Assembly (NCBI RefSeq): GCF_945906275.1
Contig: NZ_CAMDRA010000006.1
Coordinates: 1 to 44,024, forward strand
Direction: 5' to 3'
DNA length: 44,024 nucleotides
DNA from: Dongia mobilis
GTDB lineage: Bacteria; Pseudomonadota; Alphaproteobacteria; Dongiales; Dongiaceae
The position numbers and the translations under genes were made by a program. The notes under the pieces are model-generated. The model saw only the letters and a list, made by a program, of their open reading frames with translations, was not told the origin of the DNA and made no database searches. Positions 767 through 20,038 of this stretch are shown here, piece after piece; position 1 is the stretch's first letter, and each line of letters opens with the position of its first letter.

Positions 767-1738
767 ATGGGACGTGTTGTTGATTGTGCGGTCTACGAGG
801 CCGGGCGCCGGGTCGGCAGCCTCGACATCAACGATCCCGAACAGATGCGGATCGAACCGGGCCGTGTGATCTGGATCGGCCTTTACGAGCCCAGCCAGGA
901 TGAACTGGCCAAGCTGCAGGGTTATTTCGGTCTGCATGAACTGGCAATCGAGGACGCCTATCGCGCTCATCAGCGGCCCAAGCTTGAGGTCTATGGCGAG
1001 ACCCTGTTCGTGGTGATGAAGACGGCGCAGCTGGAAGGCTCGCATGTTGCCATGGGCGAGACCAGCTTCTTCATCGGCCGCGGCTACGTGATCACCGTGC
1101 GGCATGGCCCGTCAACCAGCTATACCGAGGTGCGCGCTCGCTGCGAACACACGCCGGAGCGATTCAAGAAAGGCGAGGACTTCATCCTCTATGCACTGAT
1201 GGACTTCATCGTCGATCGCTATTTCCCGATCGTGGACAGCATCGAGGACGATATCGAGAAGCTGGAGGAGGCGGTGCTTGACGGCAAGAGCACGCTCGAT
1301 GTCCTTGAGGAGATCGTGGTGCTGCGCCGTGACCTGCTGCACCTTCGCCATGCAGTGGCGCCGCTGCCGGAAATCTGCCAGCGTCTGATGCGCTACGATA
1401 TGGCGCTCATTGATCGCAATACGCATCCATACTTTCGCGATGTGTTCGATCACAGCACGATCCTGCTCGACCGCATCGAGAATCTGCGCGAATTGATCAA
1501 GACAGTGGTCGATACCAAGATGCTGATGAGCGCCATGAAGCAGAACGAGGTCATGCGGCAATTGGCGGCCTGGGCTGCCATGCTGGCGGTTCCCACGGCC
1601 GTCGCCGGCATCTATGGCATGAACTTCGAGCACATGCCGGAATTGACCTGGAAATACGGCTATTTCAGCGTGCTTGGGCTGGTCTTCGCCATTTGTGGAT
1701 TGCTGTTCTGGCGCTTCAAGCGGTCCGGCTGGCTTTAG
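767..1738 (+). CDS. corA: CorA-family magnesium/divalent cation transporter
   Basis: 323 aa ORF; C-terminal GMNFEHMPEL (GMN motif) followed by two TM helices. Confidence 0.93.
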   Translation: MGRVVDCAVYEAGRRVGSLDINDPEQMRIEPGRVIWIGLYEPSQDELAKLQGYFGLHELAIEDAYRAHQRPKLEVYGETLFVVMKTAQLEGSHVAMGETSFFIGRGYVITVRHGPSTSYTEVRARCEHTPERFKKGEDFILYALMDFIVDRYFPIVDSIEDDIEKLEEAVLDGKSTLDVLEEIVVLRRDLLHLRHAVAPLPEICQRLMRYDMALIDRNTHPYFRDVFDHSTILLDRIENLRELIKTVVDTKMLMSAMKQNEVMRQLAAWAAMLAVPTAVAGIYGMNFEHMPELTWKYGYFSVLGLVFAICGLLFWRFKRSGWL

Positions 1739-2748
1739 CTGATCCGGTATTTCTTCAGCAGCCGCCGGAACTGGTGGTAGCTGAGGTCGAGCAGTTGCGC
1801 GGCCTCGGTCTGGCTGCCGCCAGCTGCTTGCAGCGCACGGCGCAGCAGCCCGGTCTCGAAAACAGCCACCGATCTGGCGAACTCTGCCGGCGGCGCGCTC
1901 ACTGGCTTTTCCGATATCTGCCGGCCCAGGCGCCAGGGACTCTCGAAGGGATCGATATGGATGGCGGTGATCGGCTGCTCGGTCGGTCCGGCGCGATAGA
2001 CCGAGCGCTCGATCACATTGCGCAGCTCGCGCACATTGCCCGGCCATGAATGTGCCAGCAGAGCGTCGCGGCAGTCCGCCGTGAAGCCGGGAAAGAGCGG
2101 GTGACCGAGGGTCTTCGCCATGCGGATGCCAAAGGCATCGCTGAGGTCAAGAATGTCGGACGGCCGCGCCCGCAAGGGCGGCAGGGTCACGACATCGAAG
2201 GCCAGGCGATCGAGCAGATCGGCACGGAACTCGCCCTTGGCGGCTAAGTCCGGCAGATCGACATTGGTGGCAGCCACCACGCGGACATCGACCTTCAGGG
2301 TCAGCTCGCCGCCAACTCGCTCGAACTCGCCATATTCGATCACGCGCAGGATCTGCTCCTGGAGGCGCGCCGAGGCGGTGGCGATTTCATCAAGGAACAG
2401 GGTGCCGCCATCGGCTCGCTCGAAGCGGCCGCGACGCCTGGTGCGCGCCCCGGTGAAGGCGCCGGCCTCATGGCCGAACAGCTCACTTTCCAGCAGGGTC
2501 TCGCTCAGCGCCGCGCAGTTCACTTTGGTAAAGGGGCCGCCCCATCTGGGCGAGAGGAAGTGCAGACGCTCCGCAAACAGCTCCTTGCCGGTGCCGCGCT
2601 CGCCGATGACCAGAGCCGGGCGGTCGAGCTGGGCCAGCCGCGAGACATGCTCCAGCGCCTCGAGAAAGGCCGGGTCCGAGCCCAGCAAGGCGGTTGGCTC
2701 GTTCGATTGGTTTGTCGATATGGTTTCCATTGTTAAAAAAATAGACAA
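1735..2748 (-). CDS. pspF: PspF: sigma-54-dependent activator of the phage-shock operon
   Basis: 337 aa AAA+ domain with GERGTGKE and GAFTGA motifs, no N-terminal receiver, C-terminal Fis-type HTH; divergent from pspABC. Confidence 0.93.
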   Translation of the reverse strand: MSIFLTMETISTNQSNEPTALLGSDPAFLEALEHVSRLAQLDRPALVIGERGTGKELFAERLHFLSPRWGGPFTKVNCAALSETLLESELFGHEAGAFTGARTRRRGRFERADGGTLFLDEIATASARLQEQILRVIEYGEFERVGGELTLKVDVRVVAATNVDLPDLAAKGEFRADLLDRLAFDVVTLPPLRARPSDILDLSDAFGIRMAKTLGHPLFPGFTADCRDALLAHSWPGNVRELRNVIERSVYRAGPTEQPITAIHIDPFESPWRLGRQISEKPVSAPPAEFARSVAVFETGLLRRALQAAGGSQTEAAQLLDLSYHQFRRLLKKYRIS

Positions 2749-2764
2749 TAATGGCGATAAAGGA

Positions 2765-2779
2765 TAGCGATAATCGCTA
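2765..2779. promoter_or_regulatory. Candidate PspF upstream activating sequence (7-bp perfect inverted repeat)
   Basis: TAGCGAT-A-ATCGCTA in the AT-rich pspF/psp intergenic region, upstream of the sigma-54 promoter. Confidence 0.55.
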
Positions 2780-2830
2780 ATATTCGTGCTGTCTATTGAC
2801 TAACTAATTGAAATATAATGAATCATCACT

Positions 2831-2845
2831 TGGCACAGCGTTTGC
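2831..2845 (+). promoter_or_regulatory. Sigma-54 (-24/-12) promoter of the psp operon
   Basis: TGGCAC-AGCGT-TTGC; GG-N10-GC spacing exact; 37 bp before the first ORF and divergent from pspF. Confidence 0.85.
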
Positions 2846-2881
2846 CCTGAGAGGTGGGTAATTCGACCTCAGGAGCTTGCC

Positions 2882-3034
2882 ATGACAGACGATTCTGATC
2901 CCCTCTTTCGCCGCGGCCTGGCCGCCGACCTCGACCGGGCGGTGGATTGGGCCAAGGCCTTTCTCAGCACCCGGAAGGCGTCCGACTGGGCTTTCTTCGC
3001 CTGCGGCATCGCCATCGGGCATTTCCTATTCTAA
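2882..3034 (+). CDS. 50-aa small putative membrane protein, first ORF of the psp operon
   Basis: MTDDSDPLFRRGLAADLDRAVDWAKAFLSTRKASDWAFFACGIAIGHFLF*; SD AGGAG 6 nt upstream, GC-rich third positions, hydrophobic C-terminus; below the size cut-off of the supplied ORF track. Confidence 0.72.
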   Translation: MTDDSDPLFRRGLAADLDRAVDWAKAFLSTRKASDWAFFACGIAIGHFLF

Positions 3035-3083
3035 CCCGCATTTCTTACCGTCTTTGACTTGATCACCTTGAAAGGACTGCCAA

Positions 3084-3755
3084 ATGGGCATTTTTTCGCG
3101 CCTCAGTGACATCGTGAACGCCAATCTCAATTCGCTTCTGGACCTGGCGGAAGACCCGGAAAAGATGGCCAAGCTCATGATCCAGGAGATGGAGGACACG
3201 CTGGTCGAGGTGCGCTCGGCCGCCGTGAAGAACATCTCGGAAAAGAAGGAAATCCAGCGGCGGCTTGACCAGCTGGCCGCGGCCGAGGCCGATTGGGCCC
3301 AGAAGGCGGAGTTCGCCATCAGCAAGGGTCGCGACGACCTTGCCAAGGGCGCCCTACTGGCCAAGCGGAAGCTGGCGGAAAGCGCCGACGCCCTGCGCGG
3401 TGAGCTCAAGGCGGTCGACGAGGCCCTGGCGCGCCATGACGAGGATCTCGCCCGCCTGCAATCCAAGCTTCAGGAGGCCAAGGCCAAGCAGAAAGCGCTC
3501 CTCATCCGCCTCAACGCGGCCCAGAAGCGCGTGCAGGTACGCCGGACCCGGGCCGATGGCCGGGTCGACGACGCCTTGGCGCGCTATGACACCCTCCATC
3601 GCAAGATCGACGAGCTTGAAGGTCGGGCCGAGGTTTACGATATGGGTCAGGCAAAGACACTGGAGCAGGAGTTTGCCAGCCTTGAAGCAGAGACCGGCCT
3701 TGATGCAGAGTTGGACGCGCTGAAGGAAAAGCTCCGCGCCGAGCACAAGGCCTGA
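3084..3755 (+). CDS. pspA: Phage shock protein A (PspA/IM30 family)
   Basis: 223 aa coiled-coil protein MGIFSRLSDIVNANLNSLLDLAEDPEKMAKLMIQEMEDTLVEVRS... Confidence 0.97.
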   Translation: MGIFSRLSDIVNANLNSLLDLAEDPEKMAKLMIQEMEDTLVEVRSAAVKNISEKKEIQRRLDQLAAAEADWAQKAEFAISKGRDDLAKGALLAKRKLAESADALRGELKAVDEALARHDEDLARLQSKLQEAKAKQKALLIRLNAAQKRVQVRRTRADGRVDDALARYDTLHRKIDELEGRAEVYDMGQAKTLEQEFASLEAETGLDAELDALKEKLRAEHKA

Positions 3756-3814
3756 ACCCATGTTCTGGCTGAGCACCGTCGCTTCAACTGCCCAACCTCC
3801 CAAAGGGATCGCCG

Positions 3815-4051
3815 ATGAGTTTGCTTCAATTCCTCTCCGTTCCTGCGATCCTGTTCATGGTCATCGTGGCGCCGCTGTGGCTGATCTTCCACTACAAGAC
3901 GATGTGGAAGAACCAGAAGCAGCAGGGGCCCGCTGATCAGAAGGCGGTTAAGGAAATGTGGGATGTGGCGGTGCGATTGGAAGATCGTGTCGCCAATCTG
4001 GAAAAACTGCTCGACGCCGAAGCGCCGGGCTGGCGGGAGACGAAGAAATGA
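3815..4051 (+). CDS. pspB: Phage shock protein B
   Basis: 78 aa, N-terminal TM then LIFHYKTMWKNQKQQ and a coiled coil; directly after pspA. Confidence 0.92.
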   Translation: MSLLQFLSVPAILFMVIVAPLWLIFHYKTMWKNQKQQGPADQKAVKEMWDVAVRLEDRVANLEKLLDAEAPGWRETKK

Positions 4052-4497
4052 ACAGCGATTATTGGCGCGATCCAGCGTGGAATAGCAACGGCGGTGATCG
4101 CCCACCCTTCTGGGGCTATCAGGGGTTGCGCCGCTATCCCGAGCATGGACGCGTGAGTGGCGTCTGCGCGGGTATCGCGCAGCATTGGGGCATCAAAGTG
4201 AAATGGGTTCGCTTTGCGGCGATCCTGGCACTCATCTTCTTCACTATGCCCACGCTTATCTGCTATGGGCTTGCGACTCTGTTCTTGAAGTTGGCCGAGC
4301 CGGAGCCGGTGCAGCCTGCGGAGAGAGCGTCCGAGAAGGATAGTTGGGCGACCGGCGACCTTCCGCCGGATCTCAGCTTCCCCAACCTGCGCCGCAAGTT
4401 CCGCGAACTTGAGGAGCGGGCCGGCGCCATGGAGACGCAAGTCACCTCGCAGGAGTTTCATCTGCGGCGCGACTTCAGGCGAATGGGCGAGGCCTAA
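4048..4497 (+). CDS. pspC: Phage shock protein C (PspC domain)
   Basis: MNSDYWRDPAWNSN...GLRRYPEHGRVSGVCAGIAQHWGIKVKWVRFAAILALIFF; ATGA overlap with pspB; ATG at 4048 preferred over the longer track ORF. Confidence 0.92.
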   Translation: MNSDYWRDPAWNSNGGDRPPFWGYQGLRRYPEHGRVSGVCAGIAQHWGIKVKWVRFAAILALIFFTMPTLICYGLATLFLKLAEPEPVQPAERASEKDSWATGDLPPDLSFPNLRRKFRELEERAGAMETQVTSQEFHLRRDFRRMGEA

Positions 4498-4829
4498 AGA
4501 ATCTTCCCCGGAAACGGATTGCGACCAGCGCGATCTTCGATCTCGACCACCCAGAGGTCGGGATCGCGCTGGACCGACCGCGCGATATAGGCATCGGCTT
4601 CCACTTCGGTGAGCAGCGCACCGCCTTGCACCGGCAACCAGGCGATCTCGCCATCCTCGTCCCGGGTCTGCGTCAGTAGCCGGCAGCCTGGACCCAGCAG
4701 ATTGAGCTTCACCAGGATGGCGCCGCCCCAGGCGTCACCCTTATGTGCGACCACGGCGGTGAGGCCGAGCGAAAAACACAGCCGCACATGGCCCTGGACG
4801 AACAGCTCGGTCGAGAGGCCATCGCTCAC
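4494..4829 (-). CDS. DUF1491-family protein
   Basis: 111 aa, resembles alphaproteobacterial DUF1491 proteins (GHVRLCFSLGLTAVVAHKGDAWGGAILVKLN...). Confidence 0.7.
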   Translation of the reverse strand: MSDGLSTELFVQGHVRLCFSLGLTAVVAHKGDAWGGAILVKLNLLGPGCRLLTQTRDEDGEIAWLPVQGGALLTEVEADAYIARSVQRDPDLWVVEIEDRAGRNPFPGKIL

Positions 4830-6514
4830 GCCTTCTGTGCCTTGAGGGCCGCCTCGCGCAGATCTGTGAGCGAATCCTTGGGCGTGATCGCTTCCGGATC
4901 GAGACGGAGTTCGAGGAGCGCCGGCTTGCCGGCCGCCAGTGCCCGTTCGAAGGCTGGCGCGAATTGCTCTGTCGTCTCGACCAGTTCGGCGTGGGCGCCA
5001 TAGGCCTTGCCCAATGCGACGAAGTCCGGATTATGCAGTTCGGTGCCGCTGACGCGACCGGGATAGGTCTTTTCCTGGTGCATGCGGATGGTGCCGTACA
5101 TGCCGTTATTGACGACCAGGAAAACCGCATTGGCACCGTACTGCACGGCAGTTGCCAGCTCCTGGCCGTTCATCATGAAGCAGCCATCGCCATTGAATGA
5201 AACGACGATGCGGTCGGGTGCGGCGAGCTTCGCCGCGACCGCGGCCGGCACGCCATAGCCCATCGACCCGTTGGTGGGGCCAAGCTGCGTGCGGTATTTG
5301 CGATACTGATAGAAGCGATGGCTCCAGGTTGCGTAATTGCCGGCGCCGTTGGTGAGGATGGCATCGGCCGGCAAACGCTGGCGCAGCCAGGCCATGATGT
5401 CGCCCATCTGCAGGGAGCCCGGAATGGTACCGTGCTTGATGTTGTCGAGATAGTCGCTGCGCGCAGCAGCGGTCCAGCCGTCCCAGGCCTTGTGATCGAC
5501 CGGGTTCATCTTGCGGGCAGCGCGGGCAAAGGCAGCCATGCCGCTGTTGATCGGCAAGGCCGCCTGATAGACGCGGCCCAGTTCCTCGGCGCTGGCATGG
5601 ACATGGACCAGCTTCTGTGCCGGCATCGGAATATCGATCAGCGTATAGCCGGACGTGGTCATTTCACCGAGGCGCGCACCGATGGCGATGAGCAGGTCAC
5701 TTTCCTTGATGCGCTGGGCGAGCTTCGGATTGATTCCGATGCCGACATCACCGACATAATTGGGCAAGGTATTGTCGTAGAGATCCTGGCAGCGGAAGGC
5801 GCAGCCGGTGGGCAGATTGTTGGCTTCGGCAAAGACGCGGAAGTCAGCCACTGCCTCGGCATCCCAGCCGCCGCCGCCCAGGATGACGAGCGGCCGCTGC
5901 GCCTTCGCCAGCATGTTGCGGAAGTTCGCCATGTCTTCGTCGCCGGGATGGGCCCGGCTCACCTTGAAATGATCGGCATCGCCAACTTCGACCGTGTCGG
6001 TCAGCATGTCTTCCGGCAGGGCCAGCACGACCGGGCCGGGCCGGCCATTGACGGCGCGGTGGAAAGCCTGGCTTACCAGCTCCGGAATGCGGCGGGCATC
6101 GTCGATCTCCGCCACCCATTTCACCATCGGGCCGTACATGCGACGGAAATCGATTTCCTGGAACGCCTCGCGCTCGACCTGATCGCGGGCCACCTGGCCG
6201 ATGAACAGGATCATCGGCGTCGAATCCTGAAACGCGGTATGGACACCGACCGAGGCGTTGGTGGCGCCTGGCCCGCGCGTCACGAAACAGATGCCGGGCT
6301 TGCCGGTGAGCTTGCCATAGGCGTCGGCCATGTAGGCGGCGCCACCTTCCTGGCGGCAGACGATCAGCTTGATCTTGTCCTTGGAATCATGAAGCGCATC
6401 GAGGGCGGCGAGATAGCTTTCGCCGGGCACGCAGAAGGCCATCTCCACGCCATGCTGGATCAAGGCGTCGATCAGGATTCGACCGCCATTGCGTGGCTTT
6501 ACATTCTTGGTCAT
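4826..6514 (-). CDS. Thiamine pyrophosphate-dependent enzyme (acetolactate synthase-like)
   Basis: CVPGESYLAALDAL, CRQEGGAAYMADAYGKLTGKPGICFVTRGPGATNA and C-terminal ThDP site GDGCFMMNGQELATA...NNGMYGTIRMHQ. Start assigned to MTKNVKPRNGGR. Confidence 0.9.
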   Translation of the reverse strand: MTKNVKPRNGGRILIDALIQHGVEMAFCVPGESYLAALDALHDSKDKIKLIVCRQEGGAAYMADAYGKLTGKPGICFVTRGPGATNASVGVHTAFQDSTPMILFIGQVARDQVEREAFQEIDFRRMYGPMVKWVAEIDDARRIPELVSQAFHRAVNGRPGPVVLALPEDMLTDTVEVGDADHFKVSRAHPGDEDMANFRNMLAKAQRPLVILGGGGWDAEAVADFRVFAEANNLPTGCAFRCQDLYDNTLPNYVGDVGIGINPKLAQRIKESDLLIAIGARLGEMTTSGYTLIDIPMPAQKLVHVHASAEELGRVYQAALPINSGMAAFARAARKMNPVDHKAWDGWTAAARSDYLDNIKHGTIPGSLQMGDIMAWLRQRLPADAILTNGAGNYATWSHRFYQYRKYRTQLGPTNGSMGYGVPAAVAAKLAAPDRIVVSFNGDGCFMMNGQELATAVQYGANAVFLVVNNGMYGTIRMHQEKTYPGRVSGTELHNPDFVALGKAYGAHAELVETTEQFAPAFERALAAGKPALLELRLDPEAITPKDSLTDLREAALKAQKA

Positions 6515-6570: not shown

Positions 6571-8001
6571 TTACGCCTGCTTGGCAAGTGGGGGTCGCTT
6601 GTCCACCCATGGCTGGAGCTTTTCCAGGGCGGCCCCCAGGCCGAGGACGCCCCGGTCATCGTGCCGGCGGCCGATGATCTGCAGGCCGATGGGCAGATTG
6701 TCGCTGGTGAAGCCGGCCGGAACGGACAGGGCCGGGCAGGGGCTGACGAAGTTCCAGACCGAGGTGAAATCGAGGGCGTCGTAGCGGCCCTGGTCATCCA
6801 GTTTCCAATATTCCGTGTCGCTGCGGCCGACCCGGGCCGCCGGCTGGCACATGGTGCCGGTGAGGATCGCCTCGTTGCGGGCGAGGATCGGTTGCAGCTC
6901 ACCCCACATGCGGGTACGCACGACCTCGATCTTCTTGAACTCGACCGCGTTCATGGCAAAGCCGGCATCCATGAGGCGAACGACATTGGGATCCATCTTG
7001 GCGCGGTAGTCCTTCAGGACATGGCCGAAGAACGTCGCGAGGTAGACACCCCAATGCTGACTCCAAAGGTCATCCTCATCCTTGCCCCAGGGCAGCGAGA
7101 CTTCCTCGATAATGGCGCCTTGGCTGGCAAAGAGATCGGCGGCGCGCCGGACGGCCGCTTCGACCTCGGGATGCCAGACATGGTGGCCGACGTTGAGGAG
7201 CAAGGCGAGACGGCGCCCCTTGAGGTCGCATGGCAGTGGCGCCATGAAATCGAGAGGGGAGGTGAGCGACTGGATGTCACGCTCATCAGGCCCCTGGGTG
7301 ATCTCCATGAACAGGCAGGCATCGGCGATGGTGCGGGCAAGCGGACCGAAATGCGAGATCTGATCGAACTGGCTGGGCAGGATGGTGAAGGGAATGCGAC
7401 CAAAGCTCGGTTTCAGGCCGACGATGCCGCAGAAGCTGGCCGGAATGCGCACCGAGCCGCCCATGTCCGACCCTTCGGCAAACGGCACGCAGCCGCTGGC
7501 GACCGCGGCGCCTGATCCGCCCGACGAGCCACCGGCGGTGCGCTCCAGGTTCCATGGATTGCGCGTGATGCCCCAGAGCGGGCTCTCGGTAAAGCTCGAA
7601 TAGGCGAATTCCGGCGTCGTCGTCTTGCCGATGAGAATGCCGCCGGCCTTGGCCAGCGCTTCGGCGATCGGCGCGTCATGGTCCGGGACCCAATGTTCAT
7701 AGGCATAGGAGCCAAGCGTCGTGCGCTTGCCCTTGGTGGGCGTCAGATCCTTCAGCGCGTAGGGCACACCATGCAGCGGCCCGCGGAATGTGCCGGCCTT
7801 GGCCTCGGCCTCCATCACCCTGGCCATCGCCAGGGCCTCTTCGGCATAGACGAAGCAGAAGCAGTTGAGGATCGGATTGACCTCGGCGATGCGGGCCAGC
7901 GCGTTGGTCACGAGTGTGACCGGTGACAAGGTGCCGGCGCGAATCCGGGCGGCGAGGTCGGTGGCGGGGGTAAAGCAGAGATCGAGGTCAGTCACGATCA
8001 A
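6571..8001 (-). CDS. Amidase (amidase-signature family)
   Basis: 476 aa with YALKDL (Lys), GGSSGGSGAAVASG and GSDMGGSVRIPASFCG (Ser-cisSer-Lys triad). Confidence 0.9.
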   Translation of the reverse strand: MIVTDLDLCFTPATDLAARIRAGTLSPVTLVTNALARIAEVNPILNCFCFVYAEEALAMARVMEAEAKAGTFRGPLHGVPYALKDLTPTKGKRTTLGSYAYEHWVPDHDAPIAEALAKAGGILIGKTTTPEFAYSSFTESPLWGITRNPWNLERTAGGSSGGSGAAVASGCVPFAEGSDMGGSVRIPASFCGIVGLKPSFGRIPFTILPSQFDQISHFGPLARTIADACLFMEITQGPDERDIQSLTSPLDFMAPLPCDLKGRRLALLLNVGHHVWHPEVEAAVRRAADLFASQGAIIEEVSLPWGKDEDDLWSQHWGVYLATFFGHVLKDYRAKMDPNVVRLMDAGFAMNAVEFKKIEVVRTRMWGELQPILARNEAILTGTMCQPAARVGRSDTEYWKLDDQGRYDALDFTSVWNFVSPCPALSVPAGFTSDNLPIGLQIIGRRHDDRGVLGLGAALEKLQPWVDKRPPLAKQA

Positions 8002-8810
8002 TATCCGTTCCGGGCTTGAGTGAGGTGTCCAAGGCGTCGAATGACGGCAACCAGCAGGATGGCGTCGATCAGCACCATGAACGCCACCAGGGCATGATAG
8101 AGCGGCGAGGCATTCTGGGCGACCCCCGACAGGATGGCGCCTGGCAGCAGCACCGCATCGCCGGAAAGGGCGTTGCCGAGATAGAAGTCCCCCAGTGACA
8201 GGATCAGTGCCAACAGTGCCCCGAACACGGCATAAGGGCGCAAGGTCGGCCAGGTCAGGCGCCGGAAGATCGTCAATTCATCGGCGCCAGCTTCCAGGGC
8301 GGCCTCGCGCCAGGCGGGATCGACCCGTCGCCAGCCGAGACACAGGATGGCCGCAACCAATGGTGCCGCAACGGCCGCCTGGCTCGCGGCGACCAGGCCG
8401 AGCCCCAGCGCATTGCCACCCCATTGCGCGAGCTTGAGGCAGGCCAGCAGGAAAAGCGCCCCCAGACCGAAACGCGGCAAGAGGAAAGGCAGGGCCGAAG
8501 CCAGGATGGCGGCATAGCGGCGCCTGGCGATCCATTGCCGCCAGAGAAGAGAGAGGCACAGTCCCCAGGCCGAGGCGAGAAAGGCGACGGCAAATGCCAT
8601 CAGCGGTGTCTGCAACAAAGCGGGCGCGATGCCGGCTTCCTTGCTCAAGGCTGCCATCATCTGGCCAGCGTCCGCCACAAGGAGGATGCCGAGACTGTAA
8701 TAGAGACCGAGCCCGAAGATGGCGCCTATCGGCAGCAGCAGAAACAGAACGAGCAGCAGGGCGCTGATCTGGATAAGCCATGAAGGGGTGTGGCTGACGC
8801 GGCGGATCAT
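7998..8810 (-). CDS. ABC transporter permease (PotC-like)
   Basis: 270 aa multi-TM with EAA loop EAALEAGADELTIFRRLTWPTL; ATGA overlap with both neighbours. Confidence 0.85.
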   Translation of the reverse strand: MIRRVSHTPSWLIQISALLLVLFLLLPIGAIFGLGLYYSLGILLVADAGQMMAALSKEAGIAPALLQTPLMAFAVAFLASAWGLCLSLLWRQWIARRRYAAILASALPFLLPRFGLGALFLLACLKLAQWGGNALGLGLVAASQAAVAAPLVAAILCLGWRRVDPAWREAALEAGADELTIFRRLTWPTLRPYAVFGALLALILSLGDFYLGNALSGDAVLLPGAILSGVAQNASPLYHALVAFMVLIDAILLVAVIRRLGHLTQARNGY

Positions 8811-9646
8811 AGTTTGATCTCCCTCCCGCGATGCTTGGCCAGCAGCACGACAAACAGCGGCAAACCGGCCAACAGCAGCATGAGCATGAGCATCGCCGCC
8901 GCATAGGGCCAGCCGGTCTCACTTTCCAATGCGCGCTGCAGCCACTCGCTCGCTTGCTCGAAATCGCCGGTGCCAAGCAGTCGCGGCTCCAGGAAGCTGC
9001 CGACCGAACCGCAGAAGACGATCGCCGCGGCAAGTGCCGCAAGACGGCGGTTGAGCGGCCAAAGAATGTCGATGAGCAGCACGAAGGCGGTGGCTCCGCA
9101 TTCGCGCGCGGCGTCGAGGACAGAGCGATCGACGCGTGCAAAGCCAGCAGCGAGGCACAGGGCTGCCGGCGGCAGCCAGGCATGGACACTGGCGATCAGT
9201 TCGGCGGAAAAGCCGGCCAGCAAGTCGACAGGAATGAAATTGATCAGCGCCAGATCCTTGAAGGCCTGCATCCAGCCCAGGATGCGCATGCCTGGATCGA
9301 AGAACCACATCAGGATGATGAACCCGAGCGCAAGTCGGCCGAGAAAGCGGCGGCGTATGGCGATCAAGAAGGCAAGAGGCGTGGCCAGCAGCGTCGTGAT
9401 CAGGGTCGACAAGGTGGCCAGCAGCATGCTGTTCAGCAAGGCTGTGCGTGCCTCGATCGATCCTAGAACTCTCAACCAAGCTGTGCCGGTCATTGTGGTG
9501 GGCTGGTCAGGGGCACCCTGCAGGCTGAGCCATAGGACCATCAATAGCGGTGCTGCGAAGAAGCATATCTGCGCGAGGATCGCGATCCAGGCGAGGCCCA
9601 TGAGCGGACCCTGCAAGATGCCGGCACGCGGGGATTCCCGTGTCAT
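8807..9646 (-). CDS. ABC transporter permease (PotB-like)
   Basis: MTRESPRAGILQGPLMGLAWIAILAQICFFAAPLLMVLWLSLQG...; EAA-like loop DAARECGATAFVLLIDILWPL; start overlaps the upstream ATPase stop as TGATG. The track ORF to 10375 is an artefactual N-terminal extension. Confidence 0.85.
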   Translation of the reverse strand: MTRESPRAGILQGPLMGLAWIAILAQICFFAAPLLMVLWLSLQGAPDQPTTMTGTAWLRVLGSIEARTALLNSMLLATLSTLITTLLATPLAFLIAIRRRFLGRLALGFIILMWFFDPGMRILGWMQAFKDLALINFIPVDLLAGFSAELIASVHAWLPPAALCLAAGFARVDRSVLDAARECGATAFVLLIDILWPLNRRLAALAAAIVFCGSVGSFLEPRLLGTGDFEQASEWLQRALESETGWPYAAAMLMLMLLLAGLPLFVVLLAKHRGREIKL

Positions 9647-10743
9647 CAATCGGCCGGCAACAAATAGGCGTCGGCGCGGTTCCAGCCCAACGTGATGCGC
9701 CGGCCCGATTCCAGAGGAAAGGGAGCCGGCAAGGGAATGTCTGCGATGATACCGGGCGGGAAGCCCTCGACAGTCGCACGAATTTGCGCGCCGCCACCGC
9801 GCGGCATTACGTCGGCGATCTGCCCGTCGGCCAGCATGTCGAAGCGCCGGATACCAAGAAAGGGCCGCACTGCCTCGGGCCGGATCAGGAGTTGCGCCGG
9901 CCCGCTTGTCAGCGTGGGGTGACAGCGATCGCGGCCGATATCGCTGCCGCCGGCGAGCAGAATGGGGCTGCGCAGAATGACCTTGCTCTCGGTCATGTCG
10001 ACCTCGACCGGCAGCAGATTGCAGGGTCCGGCCAATCGCGCGATCACGGCATTCGCCGGTCGACCAAACAGGTCTTCCGATTTGCCGCGCTGGGCCTCGC
10101 GGCCATCGATCAGGACCGAGATGACATCGGCCAGCGCCATCGCTTCGGCAAGGTCGTCCGTGGCAAGAAGTGTGGTCAGGCCGAAATGTCGATGCAGGCG
10201 CTTCAGCACCGGCAAAAAGGCGCGCCGCGCCGCCGGCGCCAGCGAGTACAGCGGCCATTCCAGCAACAGGACTTCCGGCTCGCCGCCCAGGGCACGTGCC
10301 AGGGCCACGCGCAATTTCTGCTCGGCGGATAGCGCATTGGGCATCAGCGGCAACAGGTCGGTGCTGATACCGCATTCTTCAGCCAGGCGGTCGAGGCGAT
10401 TTTTGATCTCCCCGCGATCATGCCCTCGTTGCTGCAGCGGGAAGGCGATATTGGCAAGGACAGTGAGGTGCGGAAAGAGCGCGAGGTTCGCCCGCACAGT
10501 CATGATACCGCGCTCGCCTGGTGCGCGCAGCCCGAGATCCTTGCCGTCAAGGAGGATACGACCGTGCTGCGGGCGCACGAAGCCTGCTACGGCGTCGATC
10601 ACGGCGCGCGTGCTCTCCTGATCCTGCGATACCAGTGCCGAGAGCACGCCACGTTCCAGACTTGCCGAAAAGCCGTCGAGGATCGGTCCCGCCGGGCCAC
10701 CGACCGTCAGATCACGTAGATCGAGATGCGTCGGCACCGACAT
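9646..10743 (-). CDS. ABC transporter ATP-binding-protein homologue with fully degenerate catalytic motifs (pseudo-ATPase)
   Basis: 365 aa, overall PotA/FbpC-like layout with C-terminal TOBE-like region, but ALVSQDQESTRAVIDAVAGF (Walker A), LSAEQ (signature), VLLLEWPLYSLAP (Walker B/D-loop), LLATDD (H-loop). SD AGCAGGA upstream of ATG. Confidence 0.85.
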   Translation of the reverse strand: MSVPTHLDLRDLTVGGPAGPILDGFSASLERGVLSALVSQDQESTRAVIDAVAGFVRPQHGRILLDGKDLGLRAPGERGIMTVRANLALFPHLTVLANIAFPLQQRGHDRGEIKNRLDRLAEECGISTDLLPLMPNALSAEQKLRVALARALGGEPEVLLLEWPLYSLAPAARRAFLPVLKRLHRHFGLTTLLATDDLAEAMALADVISVLIDGREAQRGKSEDLFGRPANAVIARLAGPCNLLPVEVDMTESKVILRSPILLAGGSDIGRDRCHPTLTSGPAQLLIRPEAVRPFLGIRRFDMLADGQIADVMPRGGGAQIRATVEGFPPGIIADIPLPAPFPLESGRRITLGWNRADAYLLPAD

Positions 10744-10773: not shown

Positions 10774-11118
10774 TCAGTGGTGATGAGCTTCGTGCAGCAT
10801 GCTCTGGCGCATGCCGGTATCGTAGCTGTGGCCGGCAGGCGTCAGGATGCAGGCGCGGGGAAACATCGCCTTGATGAGACCCTTGCGCTCCAAGGCGCGC
10901 CAGGCAGCCTCGTTGCCAAGGCCGGTCGCGTCGCTGGCCGAGAGAACCCAGGGGCCAAGATGAAAATGATCGCCATGGGCATGGGGCAGGCGCTGAATGA
11001 GGGTGTGGCCAGCTTCCTCTGCCGGCACGGCATAGCCTTCAAGTCCGGACAGGGCCTGGAACAGGGTCAGCGTTTTCAACTGCAGGGCGTTGAGATTGAG
11101 TGGGTTCTTCTTCGGCAT
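10774..11118 (-). CDS. Conserved hypothetical, histidine-rich
   Basis: 114 aa MPKKNPLNLNALQLKTLTLFQALSG...PHAHGDHFHLG...HEAHHH; same strand and spacing as neighbouring genes. Confidence 0.7.
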   Translation of the reverse strand: MPKKNPLNLNALQLKTLTLFQALSGLEGYAVPAEEAGHTLIQRLPHAHGDHFHLGPWVLSASDATGLGNEAAWRALERKGLIKAMFPRACILTPAGHSYDTGMRQSMLHEAHHH

Positions 11119-17676: not shown

Positions 17677-18822
17677 TCAGCTCAACAAGGCGACGGGGCT
17701 GTTGGCGTGCCAGGTGACATATACCCGGTCGTCCCAATCGATCGCATGCTCGGCGGCGCGGCGCTGGTTCGACATCGTGACTTTGACTTCCTTGCCGCTG
17801 TCGAGCTTGATCAGATAGACGGACATGTTGCCCATATAGGCGATGCCCTTTACGACGCCGCCTGCGCAGTTGTTGGCGTCATCCGGCTTGGTCTTGTCCA
17901 GCTTCATCTTCTCCGGCCGAACAGCAACCCACACCTTGGCGCCGGGTGCTGCTGAAATGCCGTGATCGATATAGATCGGGCAGCCAGCCTCCGTTGACTC
18001 GATCAGCACATGGCCGGGCTCGTCCTCGACGATGTTGCCTTCGAATAAATTGACCGACCCGATGAAGTCGGCGACGAACTTGGTATTGGGGTACTCGTAT
18101 ATTTCCTTGGGCGTACCGACCTGCACGATCTGACCATTGTTCATGACGCCGATCCTGGTCGACAGCGTCATCGCTTCTTCCTGGTCGTGGGTCACGACGA
18201 TGAAGGTGATGCCGAGCCGATCCTGGATGTTCATGATCTCGAACTGGGTCGCTTCGCGCAGCTTCTTGTCGAGGGCGCCCAAGGGTTCGTCGAGCAGCAG
18301 CAACTTGGGTTCCTTGACCAGCGAACGGGCAAGTGCCACGCGCTGACGCTGGCCGCCGGAGAGCTGATGCGGCTTGCGGTGGGCGAACTGGCGCATCTGC
18401 ACCATGTCGAGGATGGCGTCGACGCGGCTCTTGATCTGGTCAGGCGGAGTCTTGTCATGATTGAGGCCGAAGGCGACATTCTGTTCGACCGTCATGTGCG
18501 GGAACAAGGCATAGGATTGAAACATCATGTTGGTCGGTCGCTCATAAGGCGGGATATCCGCCATATCGACGCCGTCGATGTAGATCTTGCCCGATGTCGG
18601 TTGTTCGAAGCCGGCCAGCATGCGCAGCAACGTCGTCTTGCCGCAGCCCGATCCACCCAGCAGGGCAAACAATTCACCGCGATAGATGTTGGCGGAGACA
18701 TTGTTGACCGCGACGAAATCGCCGAACTTTTTGGTGACGTTCTCGATGCGGATATAGGGCTGTGCGTTCGGATCGTTCCAGATCTGCGTGCTCGGTTCCG
18801 CTTTTGCTCGTTCAGCCGCCAT
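17677..18822 (-). CDS. potG: Polyamine ABC transporter ATP-binding protein (PotG/PotA), canonical motifs
   Basis: GGSGCGKTT, LSGGQRQRVALARSL, LLLLDEPLGALD, VVTHDQEEAM all intact; C-terminal TOBE. Start at MAAERAKAEP with SD AGGAAA. Confidence 0.94.
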   Translation of the reverse strand: MAAERAKAEPSTQIWNDPNAQPYIRIENVTKKFGDFVAVNNVSANIYRGELFALLGGSGCGKTTLLRMLAGFEQPTSGKIYIDGVDMADIPPYERPTNMMFQSYALFPHMTVEQNVAFGLNHDKTPPDQIKSRVDAILDMVQMRQFAHRKPHQLSGGQRQRVALARSLVKEPKLLLLDEPLGALDKKLREATQFEIMNIQDRLGITFIVVTHDQEEAMTLSTRIGVMNNGQIVQVGTPKEIYEYPNTKFVADFIGSVNLFEGNIVEDEPGHVLIESTEAGCPIYIDHGISAAPGAKVWVAVRPEKMKLDKTKPDDANNCAGGVVKGIAYMGNMSVYLIKLDSGKEVKVTMSNQRRAAEHAIDWDDRVYVTWHANSPVALLS

Positions 18823-18913: not shown

Positions 18914-20038
18914 TTACTGACCAGTCTTCACCCGTGTCCATTGACGCGTGATGACACGGCTGAGCTCCTGGGTACGGATCATCGAGGGGAACCCGCGCTT
19001 CATCACCTCTTCGTTCGGATAGATGGCTGGATCCTCCAGGATTTCCTGGTTCACGAACTCCTTGGCCGCCATATTGGCGTTGGCGTAGTAAGTATAGTTG
19101 GTGGCGGCCGCAATGACTTCAGGCCGCATCATGTAATTGAGGAACAAATTGGCGTTCTTGGGATGTGGCGCATCCGCCGGGATCAACATGCCGTCGAACC
19201 AGATGTTGGTGCCTTCCTTCGGGATCGTGTAGGCGAGATTGATCTTGAGGCCGGCCTCGGCGGCGCGAGTCGCAGCCGTGGCATAGTCACCCGACCAGCT
19301 CATCGAGATGCAATTCTCGCCATTGGGCAGCGATGTCAGATACTGCTGCGAGTCGAAATTGCGGATGTAGGGACGCACCTTCATCACCATCTCGGCCGCA
19401 GCAATGATGTCTTCTTCCTTCTGCGAGGTCGGATCCTTACCCATATAGGCAAGCGCCAGCGGGAACACGTCCTCGGGTGAATCGAGGAAGGTGACGCCGC
19501 AATCGGCGAATTTGGAGAGGATGTTCGGATCGAAGATGATGGCGAGGCTGTCGAGCGGCGCGTCGGGCATACGCTCCTTCAGCATGTCGACATTGTACGA
19601 AAATCCGTTGGTGCCCCACATATACGGAATGGCGTGTTCATTGCCCGGATCGGCGTCCTTGGCAAGAATGGCCATGATGGACGGATCCATGTTCTTCAGG
19701 TTCGGGAGCAGGCTCTTGTCGAGCTTTTGATAAAGGCCGATGCGAATCTGCCGCGCGAAGAATGACGAGGATGGGAAGACGACATCATAGCCCGTACCGC
19801 CAGTGACGAGCTTGGCTTCCAGATCTTCATTGCCGGTATAGGTGTCGTATTGCACCTTGATGCCGGTCTCCTTCTCGAAGTCGGCGATGGTGGTCTCGCC
19901 GATATAGTCGGACCAGTTGTAGACATTCAGTTCTTTGGGTTCGTCATTGTCTTGGGCGCTCGCTGTCATGACTGATCCAGCCATCAGCATAGCCACCCCG
20001 ATCATCATGGATCGGCGGAAACTGCAGTAAACTGCCAT
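18914..20038 (-). CDS. potF: Polyamine (putrescine-type) substrate-binding protein, PotF/PotD family, secreted
   Basis: Sec signal peptide (MTASAQ cleavage region) then ELNVYNWSDYIGETTIADFEKETGIKVQYDTY. Confidence 0.92.
   Translation of the reverse strand: MAVYCSFRRSMMIGVAMLMAGSVMTASAQDNDEPKELNVYNWSDYIGETTIADFEKETGIKVQYDTYTGNEDLEAKLVTGGTGYDVVFPSSSFFARQIRIGLYQKLDKSLLPNLKNMDPSIMAILAKDADPGNEHAIPYMWGTNGFSYNVDMLKERMPDAPLDSLAIIFDPNILSKFADCGVTFLDSPEDVFPLALAYMGKDPTSQKEEDIIAAAEMVMKVRPYIRNFDSQQYLTSLPNGENCISMSWSGDYATAATRAAEAGLKINLAYTIPKEGTNIWFDGMLIPADAPHPKNANLFLNYMMRPEVIAAATNYTYYANANMAAKEFVNQEILEDPAIYPNEEVMKRGFPSMIRTQELSRVITRQWTRVKTGQ

Follow-up and report, generated by a model that had tools for sequence, protein, structure and literature searches.

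The locus and its genes

The window (by which we mean the whole 44,024-nucleotide stretch of Dongia DNA that was analysed) carries on its minus strand a module of three genes, encoding a homologue of ABC importer ATPases and two permeases, which lies between a small conserved gene and an amidase gene (Table 1). The ATPase homologue, here termed the ‘pseudo-NBD’, was described in a first-pass annotation of the sequence as an intact open reading frame whose stop codon overlaps the start of the following permease gene (TGATG). Both observations hold: the frame runs for 365 codons from an ATG start to a TGA stop, and a stop/start overlap between the pseudo-NBD and permease 1 genes (either TGATG or ATGA) is kept in five of six orthologs.

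The two permeases possess the EAA coupling loops of a type I ABC importer and evolve under purifying selection (dN/dS 0.04-0.12 for the usable pairs). A gene for a dedicated SBP, the other component of such an importer, is not present in the syntenic operon of any of six species, nor is a second NBD gene found within that operon; the nearest SBP in the window is PotF (18914-20038), which is part of a separate PotFGHI operon. Of the three module genes, that for permease 1 evolves fastest (its 69% identity compares with 92% for the amidase), and the last third of its product (FLEPRLLG...EWLQRA.ESE.GWPYA) is nearly invariant.

The genes on either side have a wider distribution. Downstream, the amidase, a TPP enzyme (PRK08199) and a DUF1491 gene (minus strand, 4494-6514 and 6571-7995) form a block that is found throughout the family, and in some genera an amine-oxidase-like gene stands between the amidase and the TPP enzyme; the amidase/TPP-enzyme block suggests a single catabolic pathway. 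Upstream, the 114-residue protein gives zero matches to Pfam and is a conserved family linked to YajQ, being 77-97% identical among Dongia species and adjoining YajQ in nearly all of the Dongiaceae loci examined. Elsewhere in the window (1735-4497) lies a complete-looking phage-shock gene set that comprises a sigma-54 activator (PspF-like), PspA and PspC.

Table 1. Genes and sequence features at the pseudo-NBD locus, in window coordinates.
Feature	Position	Strand	Remarks
Conserved 114-aa protein	10774..11118	-	Just upstream of the pseudo-NBD, gap of 30 nt
Pseudo-NBD, 365 aa, catalytic motifs all gone	9646..10743	-	Full-length MalK/PotA-type ABC ATPase homologue
Walker A remnant, residues 39-46, SQDQESTR (canonical GPSGCGKT)	10606..10629	-	Falls in the NBD-core segment with the lowest conservation
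Q-loop / permease-docking segment, residues 84-92, RANLALFPH	10468..10494	-	Gln gone, ALFP kept
Signature position, residues 138-142, LSAEQ (canonical LSGGQ)	10318..10332	-	Second Gly is Glu in all members
Glu162-Trp163 in place of the Walker B Asp-Glu	10255..10260	-	Second residue W, Q or R; Glu162 does not vary
Ala169 in place of the D-loop Asp; orthologs have Pro	10237..10239	-	MalK D165 position
Asp196 in place of the switch His; orthologs have Asp or Asn	10156..10158	-	MalK His192 position
TOBE-type C-terminal regulatory domain, residues 240-365	9649..10026	-	FLGIRRFD and IADVMP highly conserved
Permease 1, PotH/PotB type	8807..9646	-	EAA-type loop AARECGA...ILWP intact; start overlaps pseudo-NBD stop
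Permease 2, PotI/PotC type	7998..8810	-	EAA-type loop EAALEAGA...LTWP; overlaps permease 1
Amidase	6571..7995	-	Downstream, same orientation; member of the older family-wide block
TPP-dependent enzyme (NCBIfam PRK08199)	4826..6514	-	Downstream; member of the older block

An ABC ATPase fold without its catalytic motifs

By sequence and by predicted fold, the pseudo-NBD belongs to the MalK/PotA-type NBDs of ABC importers. The Pfam model ABC_tran matches it at 39.1 bits (cut-off 25), and the best NCBIfam model is potA (1.5e-46), although the score of 159 bits falls far below the equivalog-type cut-off of 355.6 bits. The ‘TOBE-like’ C-terminal region that was noted at the outset is borne out by a TOBE_2 match of 20.0 bits, marginally under its cut-off of 21, and by a modelled fold that combines an ABC ATPase with a TOBE domain. 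That model (AlphaFold2; pLDDT 95.2, pTM 0.89) was obtained from an alignment that also included 44 canonical NBDs, and its closest matches, at the top of the Foldseek ranking, are the MalK chains of MalFGK2 (TM 0.88-0.89, 28% identity). Because the same procedure with only the six family members yielded a pLDDT of 43.6, so that canonical homologues were needed in the alignment, the model is not independent evidence; a MalK-like fold is compatible with the sequence of the pseudo-NBD, though canonical relatives helped to produce that result.

Membership by fold is not matched by the motifs of a functional ATPase of this type, which are gone in six species. Substitutions are described here relative to a MalK reference sequence, anchored on K42, Q82, D158-E159 and H192, an assignment that agrees with HMMER alignments to solved NBDs. 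The motif strings reported in the first-pass annotation are exact. In Walker A, G36, G39, G41 and K42 of MalK have become Ser, Gln, Ser and Thr; the Q-loop Gln (Q82) is replaced by Ala, the D158-E159 pair by Glu-Trp, and the aromatic residue of the A-loop by Gly. One reading has to be amended: the D-loop Asp, said to have become Pro, aligns to Ala169 in the protein of the window, and it is in five orthologs that Pro occupies this position.

These losses are common to the family. In all six Dongia proteins the Gly and Lys residues of Walker A, the Q-loop Gln, LSGGQ, the Walker B Asp-Glu, the D-loop Asp and the switch His have been replaced. At the signature position the orthologs differ among themselves (LSAEQ, LTAEQ, LSPEI and LLPET, the last being the sequence in D. 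mobilis). Three charged residues, in turn, are fixed in the family and are missing, or nearly so, from the canonical NBDs used for comparison: E141 at the second signature Gly, E162 at the Walker B Asp, and R84, an Arg that stands at the position of MalK F81 in every member. The segment of MalK from F81 to Y87 holds the coupling helix of the permease (PMC7658222); among its equivalents A85 and L86 are kept, Y87 has become Phe and F81 has become Arg.

The residues that an ABC ATPase requires at its nucleotide site are established for the family as a whole (reviewed in PMC7756269). Since the pseudo-NBD has no conserved P-loop, adenine-stacking aromatic residue, Walker B motif, Q-loop or switch His, both the binding and the hydrolysis of ATP appear very unlikely from its sequence.

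Conservation and selection across the genus

Seventeen genomes of the family, six of them from other members of the genus, were searched for orthologs. Five of these six congeners, including Dongia mobilis CGMCC 1.7660, encode a pseudo-NBD ortholog (80, 71, 70, 55 and 54-55% identity), in every case in an open frame with zero internal stops and in the same operon. Ratios of dN to dS were then estimated with our own pairwise maximum-likelihood fit of a GY94-type codon model, leaving out the deep pairs (in which synonymous sites are saturated). The pseudo-NBD gives 0.104 for the window genome and its closest counterpart (G000-G007) and 0.076 for a second pair (G005-G003), with 2dlnL values of 201 and 252, respectively, against dN/dS = 1; in the same genomes the canonical cousin described below gives 0.041-0.080 and PotG 0.018-0.038. 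The pseudo-NBD is therefore under strong purifying selection, with an approximately two- to three-fold faster rate of amino-acid change.

Constraint is distributed unevenly along the protein. When pairwise identity is averaged over windows of 8 or 12 residues, the lowest values anywhere in the NBD core (0.20-0.29) all fall where Walker A used to be; at these columns the canonical cousins from the six genomes are fully identical to one another (1.00). Thus, the phosphate loop drifts freely while the remaining fold is held. The TOBE/regulatory domain is conserved to the same degree as the NBD core (dN/dS 0.07-0.10, with FLGIRRFD and IADVMP invariant). In the canonical cousins, it is the C-terminal domain that varies (0.66, against values of approximately 0.9 and above over most of the NBD).

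Sequencing error or chance is ruled out by five independent congeneric genomes that contain intact orthologs with the same losses, and a pseudogene by dN/dS values of 0.08-0.10 together with a frame that is open in six genomes. Each of the signs by which the first-pass annotation proposed that decay or error might be recognized (orthologs with canonical motifs at the locus, a dN/dS near 1, frameshifts, or a sequencing error restoring GKST) was looked for, and none is present: no canonical-motif ortholog occurs at the locus, dN/dS is approximately 0.1, all frames are unshifted, and GKST is not restored by any error. Its broader argument, that motifs lost together from a protein that stays intact and selected favour a non-hydrolytic role over decay, gains support from the orthologs, the dN/dS values and the motif alignment.

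Origin and distribution of the module

Phylogenetic analysis places the pseudo-NBDs in a single clade (100/100 support) on a long stem (1.99), and the motif losses therefore predate the split of the six species. Within the same genome, the NBD that scores best against the pseudo-NBD belongs to an SBP-NBD-permease-permease operon located on a different contig; permeases 1 and 2 are each nearest to the corresponding permease of this operon, ahead of PotH and PotI; and a profile of permease 1, run against 337 alphaproteobacterial genomes at 1e-24, matches beyond its own family only the same operon. The best reading of these comparisons is that the module would be a paralogue of the SBP-NBD-permease-permease importer, with an uncertain placement on account of long branches and an exact sister that the tree leaves open. 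PotG (17677-18822) had been put forward as a specific partner of the pseudo-NBD; that proposal finds no specific support, PotG being the closest relative neither by score nor in the tree.

In other genera of the Dongiaceae, a block consisting of YajQ, the 114-residue protein, the amidase, the TPP enzyme and DUF1491 is found without a transporter, with interposed genes in some; in three genomes (G008, G009 and G011) the amidase follows immediately after the gene for the 114-residue protein, with no transporter between them. The three-gene module was therefore placed into an older block within Dongia. No ortholog with canonical motifs exists at this locus, the block in the other genera of the family having no transporter there. 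In the one congener that lacks the module gene (G004), no credible pseudo-NBD remnant could be found between the amidase and the upstream small gene, an interval that contains an open reading frame for a PhyH-like dioxygenase. This phytanoyl-CoA-dioxygenase-like frame lies at L173:6770-8052, and similar genes are found near the amidase in several other genera.

Members of the pseudo-NBD family outside Dongia were sought in 289 alphaproteobacterial genomes (at E ≤ 1e-75) and in 399 Pseudomonadota (at 1e-70), in both cases with none found, and a pattern-limited scan of 85k species returned only the Dongia members and canonical NBDs. The permeases of the module likewise gave no match outside Dongia at 1e-20 (385 genomes) or at 1e-24 (337 genomes). 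Within the samples and patterns searched, the module is restricted to Dongia.

Possible roles of the pseudo-NBD

Selection still acts on the fold of the pseudo-NBD, on part of its docking surface and on its TOBE region, as well as on the two permeases. With this pattern in mind, we assign about even odds (a probability of roughly 0.5) to a role as a structural or gating scaffold for the two permeases without ATP hydrolysis, a reading drawn from sequence comparison. The protein would still have the fold, the TOBE domain for dimerisation and some of the surface on which the permeases dock, and would have lost ATP hydrolysis and, to judge from the motifs, ATP binding. A pseudo-NBD homodimer, joined by its C-terminal domains, would sit under its own two permeases, and the resulting complex, derived from an ABC importer, would serve as a facilitator, channel or sensor that needs no ATP hydrolysis. 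Its history might have begun with the appearance of the module as a paralogue of the SBP-NBD-permease-permease importer, the binding protein being lost or never carried, and continued when the module came to lie in the YajQ-amidase-TPP-enzyme block in a Dongia ancestor. The pseudo-NBD probably has a structural or switching function and does not act as a motor, and we infer that permease assembly or regulation may be the task concerned. The fuller proposal, that two permeases and a dimer of dead NBDs, without SBP or ATPase, constitute an ATP-independent facilitator, channel or sensor kept by selection across the genus, is advanced more tentatively and at somewhat less than even odds.

Several points weigh against the scaffold. 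The invariant replacement of F81 by Arg lies within the docking cleft itself, and the binding of the permeases may therefore be altered. The dN of the three-gene module, which is 2-3 times that of its neighbours, fits a partly relaxed constraint. In addition, we know of no established transport mechanism for an ABC importer that lacks both an SBP and ATPase activity. That an ABC transporter with damaged NBDs can behave as a facilitator is known experimentally from the D-loop mutant of ABCB2/B3, which is nucleotide-gated (PMC7756269).

The explanation that competes best with such a scaffold, while itself rather unlikely, is that the permeases are driven by a canonical ATPase whose gene lies outside the module, the most natural candidate being the NBD of the paralogous SBP-NBD-permease-permease operon, which would serve either as a canonical homodimer or in a heterodimer with the pseudo-NBD as the regulatory half. 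In the MsmX/MsmK family, type I importers are known to share NBDs (PMC7658222), and pairs of dead and live NBDs occur in the fused importers RbsA and NupO (PMC11466899). At the locus itself, the EAA loops are kept in both permeases; the canonical cousin is present in 6/6 Dongia genomes that possess a pseudo-NBD, and G004, without a pseudo-NBD, gives no cousin match at E ≤ 1e-48. However, the canonical cousin also occurs in four outgroup genomes that lack the module, so that co-occurrence is uninformative there, and the signature, which would be the sole contribution of a dead half to the ATP site of its partner, is lost and drifting (from LSAEQ to LLPET), as is the D-loop. The ATPase heterodimer suggested in the first-pass annotation is weakened accordingly: a candidate canonical partner does exist, but the signature that would complete that partner's site does not, and the choice of PotG in particular is unsupported.

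Less probable again would be a cytosolic protein with no part in transport, serving as regulator or sensor of, for instance, the parent transporter or the amidase or TPP enzyme encoded downstream. Conservation of the TOBE domain at the level of the NBD core, in a region that is the variable part of the canonical cousins, would suit such a function, whereas the translational coupling to permease 1 and the constraint on both permeases point to a membrane complex. An unorthodox ATPase or nucleotide binder, its site rebuilt from E162, R84 and E141, might account for new charged residues that are invariant at the old catalytic positions; it is very improbable because no phosphate loop is conserved (nowhere else in the NBD core is conservation as low, at 0.20-0.29), and the A-loop aromatic residue is gone as well. 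An ordinary pseudogene or an error of sequencing or assembly, which the motif loss and an evolution faster than that of the neighbouring genes might bring to mind, can be set aside in view of six intact genomes, a dN/dS of ~0.1 with 2dlnL over 200 versus neutrality, a conserved start/stop coupling, and losses that map to one ancestral stem of a 100/100 clade.

Relation to known ABC systems

A degenerate ATP site in an ABC protein is normally paired with a working one. Degenerate NBDs are accordingly well known as one half beside a functional half, both in exporters (PMC7756269) and in RbsA and NupO (PMC11466899). The heterodimeric exporters with degenerate sites (TM287/288, TmrAB and TAP) have, like the pseudo-NBD, lost catalytic residues and retained function (PMC7756269); in contrast to the Dongia module, they keep one canonical site and have fused TMD-NBD chains. 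Closer in type are the Bacillus subtilis importers RbsA and NupO, whose degenerate NBD halves likewise lack the Walker A Lys (both) and the Walker B Asp/Glu (NupO) (PMC11466899). In both importers a single chain joins the dead half to a canonical one, whereas in Dongia the dead NBD has a gene of its own, is accompanied by no other NBD in its operon and retains none of the motifs.

The multitask NBDs MsmX and MsmK offer a different parallel, in that permeases may likewise rely on an NBD encoded elsewhere (PMC7658222), although the permease operons that they serve have no NBD gene at all and the Dongia operon keeps a dead one, coupled to a permease. With the MalK/PotA-type (CUT1/POPT-like) ATPases the pseudo-NBD shares its fold, its length, the order of NBD and TOBE domains and a place in the operon before two permeases; it differs from them in having no catalytic motif, in an operon that has no SBP gene. 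More generally, it resembles other pseudoenzymes, in which catalytic residues are likewise lost and the fold and binding surfaces are under selection. A limited literature search, which covered little of the subscription literature, did not find another stand-alone importer pseudo-NBD that is the only NBD of its operon, lacks all motifs and is conserved genus-wide.

The significance of the locus lies in the sole ATPase subunit of this importer-type operon, which has no catalytic motif left and has nevertheless been preserved while a whole genus diverged; selection acts on the remainder of the fold, and none could be detected on the P-loop. The pseudo-NBD represents a natural experiment on the roles of an NBD besides ATP hydrolysis (permease assembly, gating and regulation), and Dongia mobilis is a cultured organism in which such roles can be tested.

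A separate NBD with departures from the canonical motifs was observed at L083:8005-9117. It has an altered Walker A (GATLAGKT) and carries STTE instead of THD at the H-loop, and it presumably resembles the GlpS type of rhizobial glycerol transporters.
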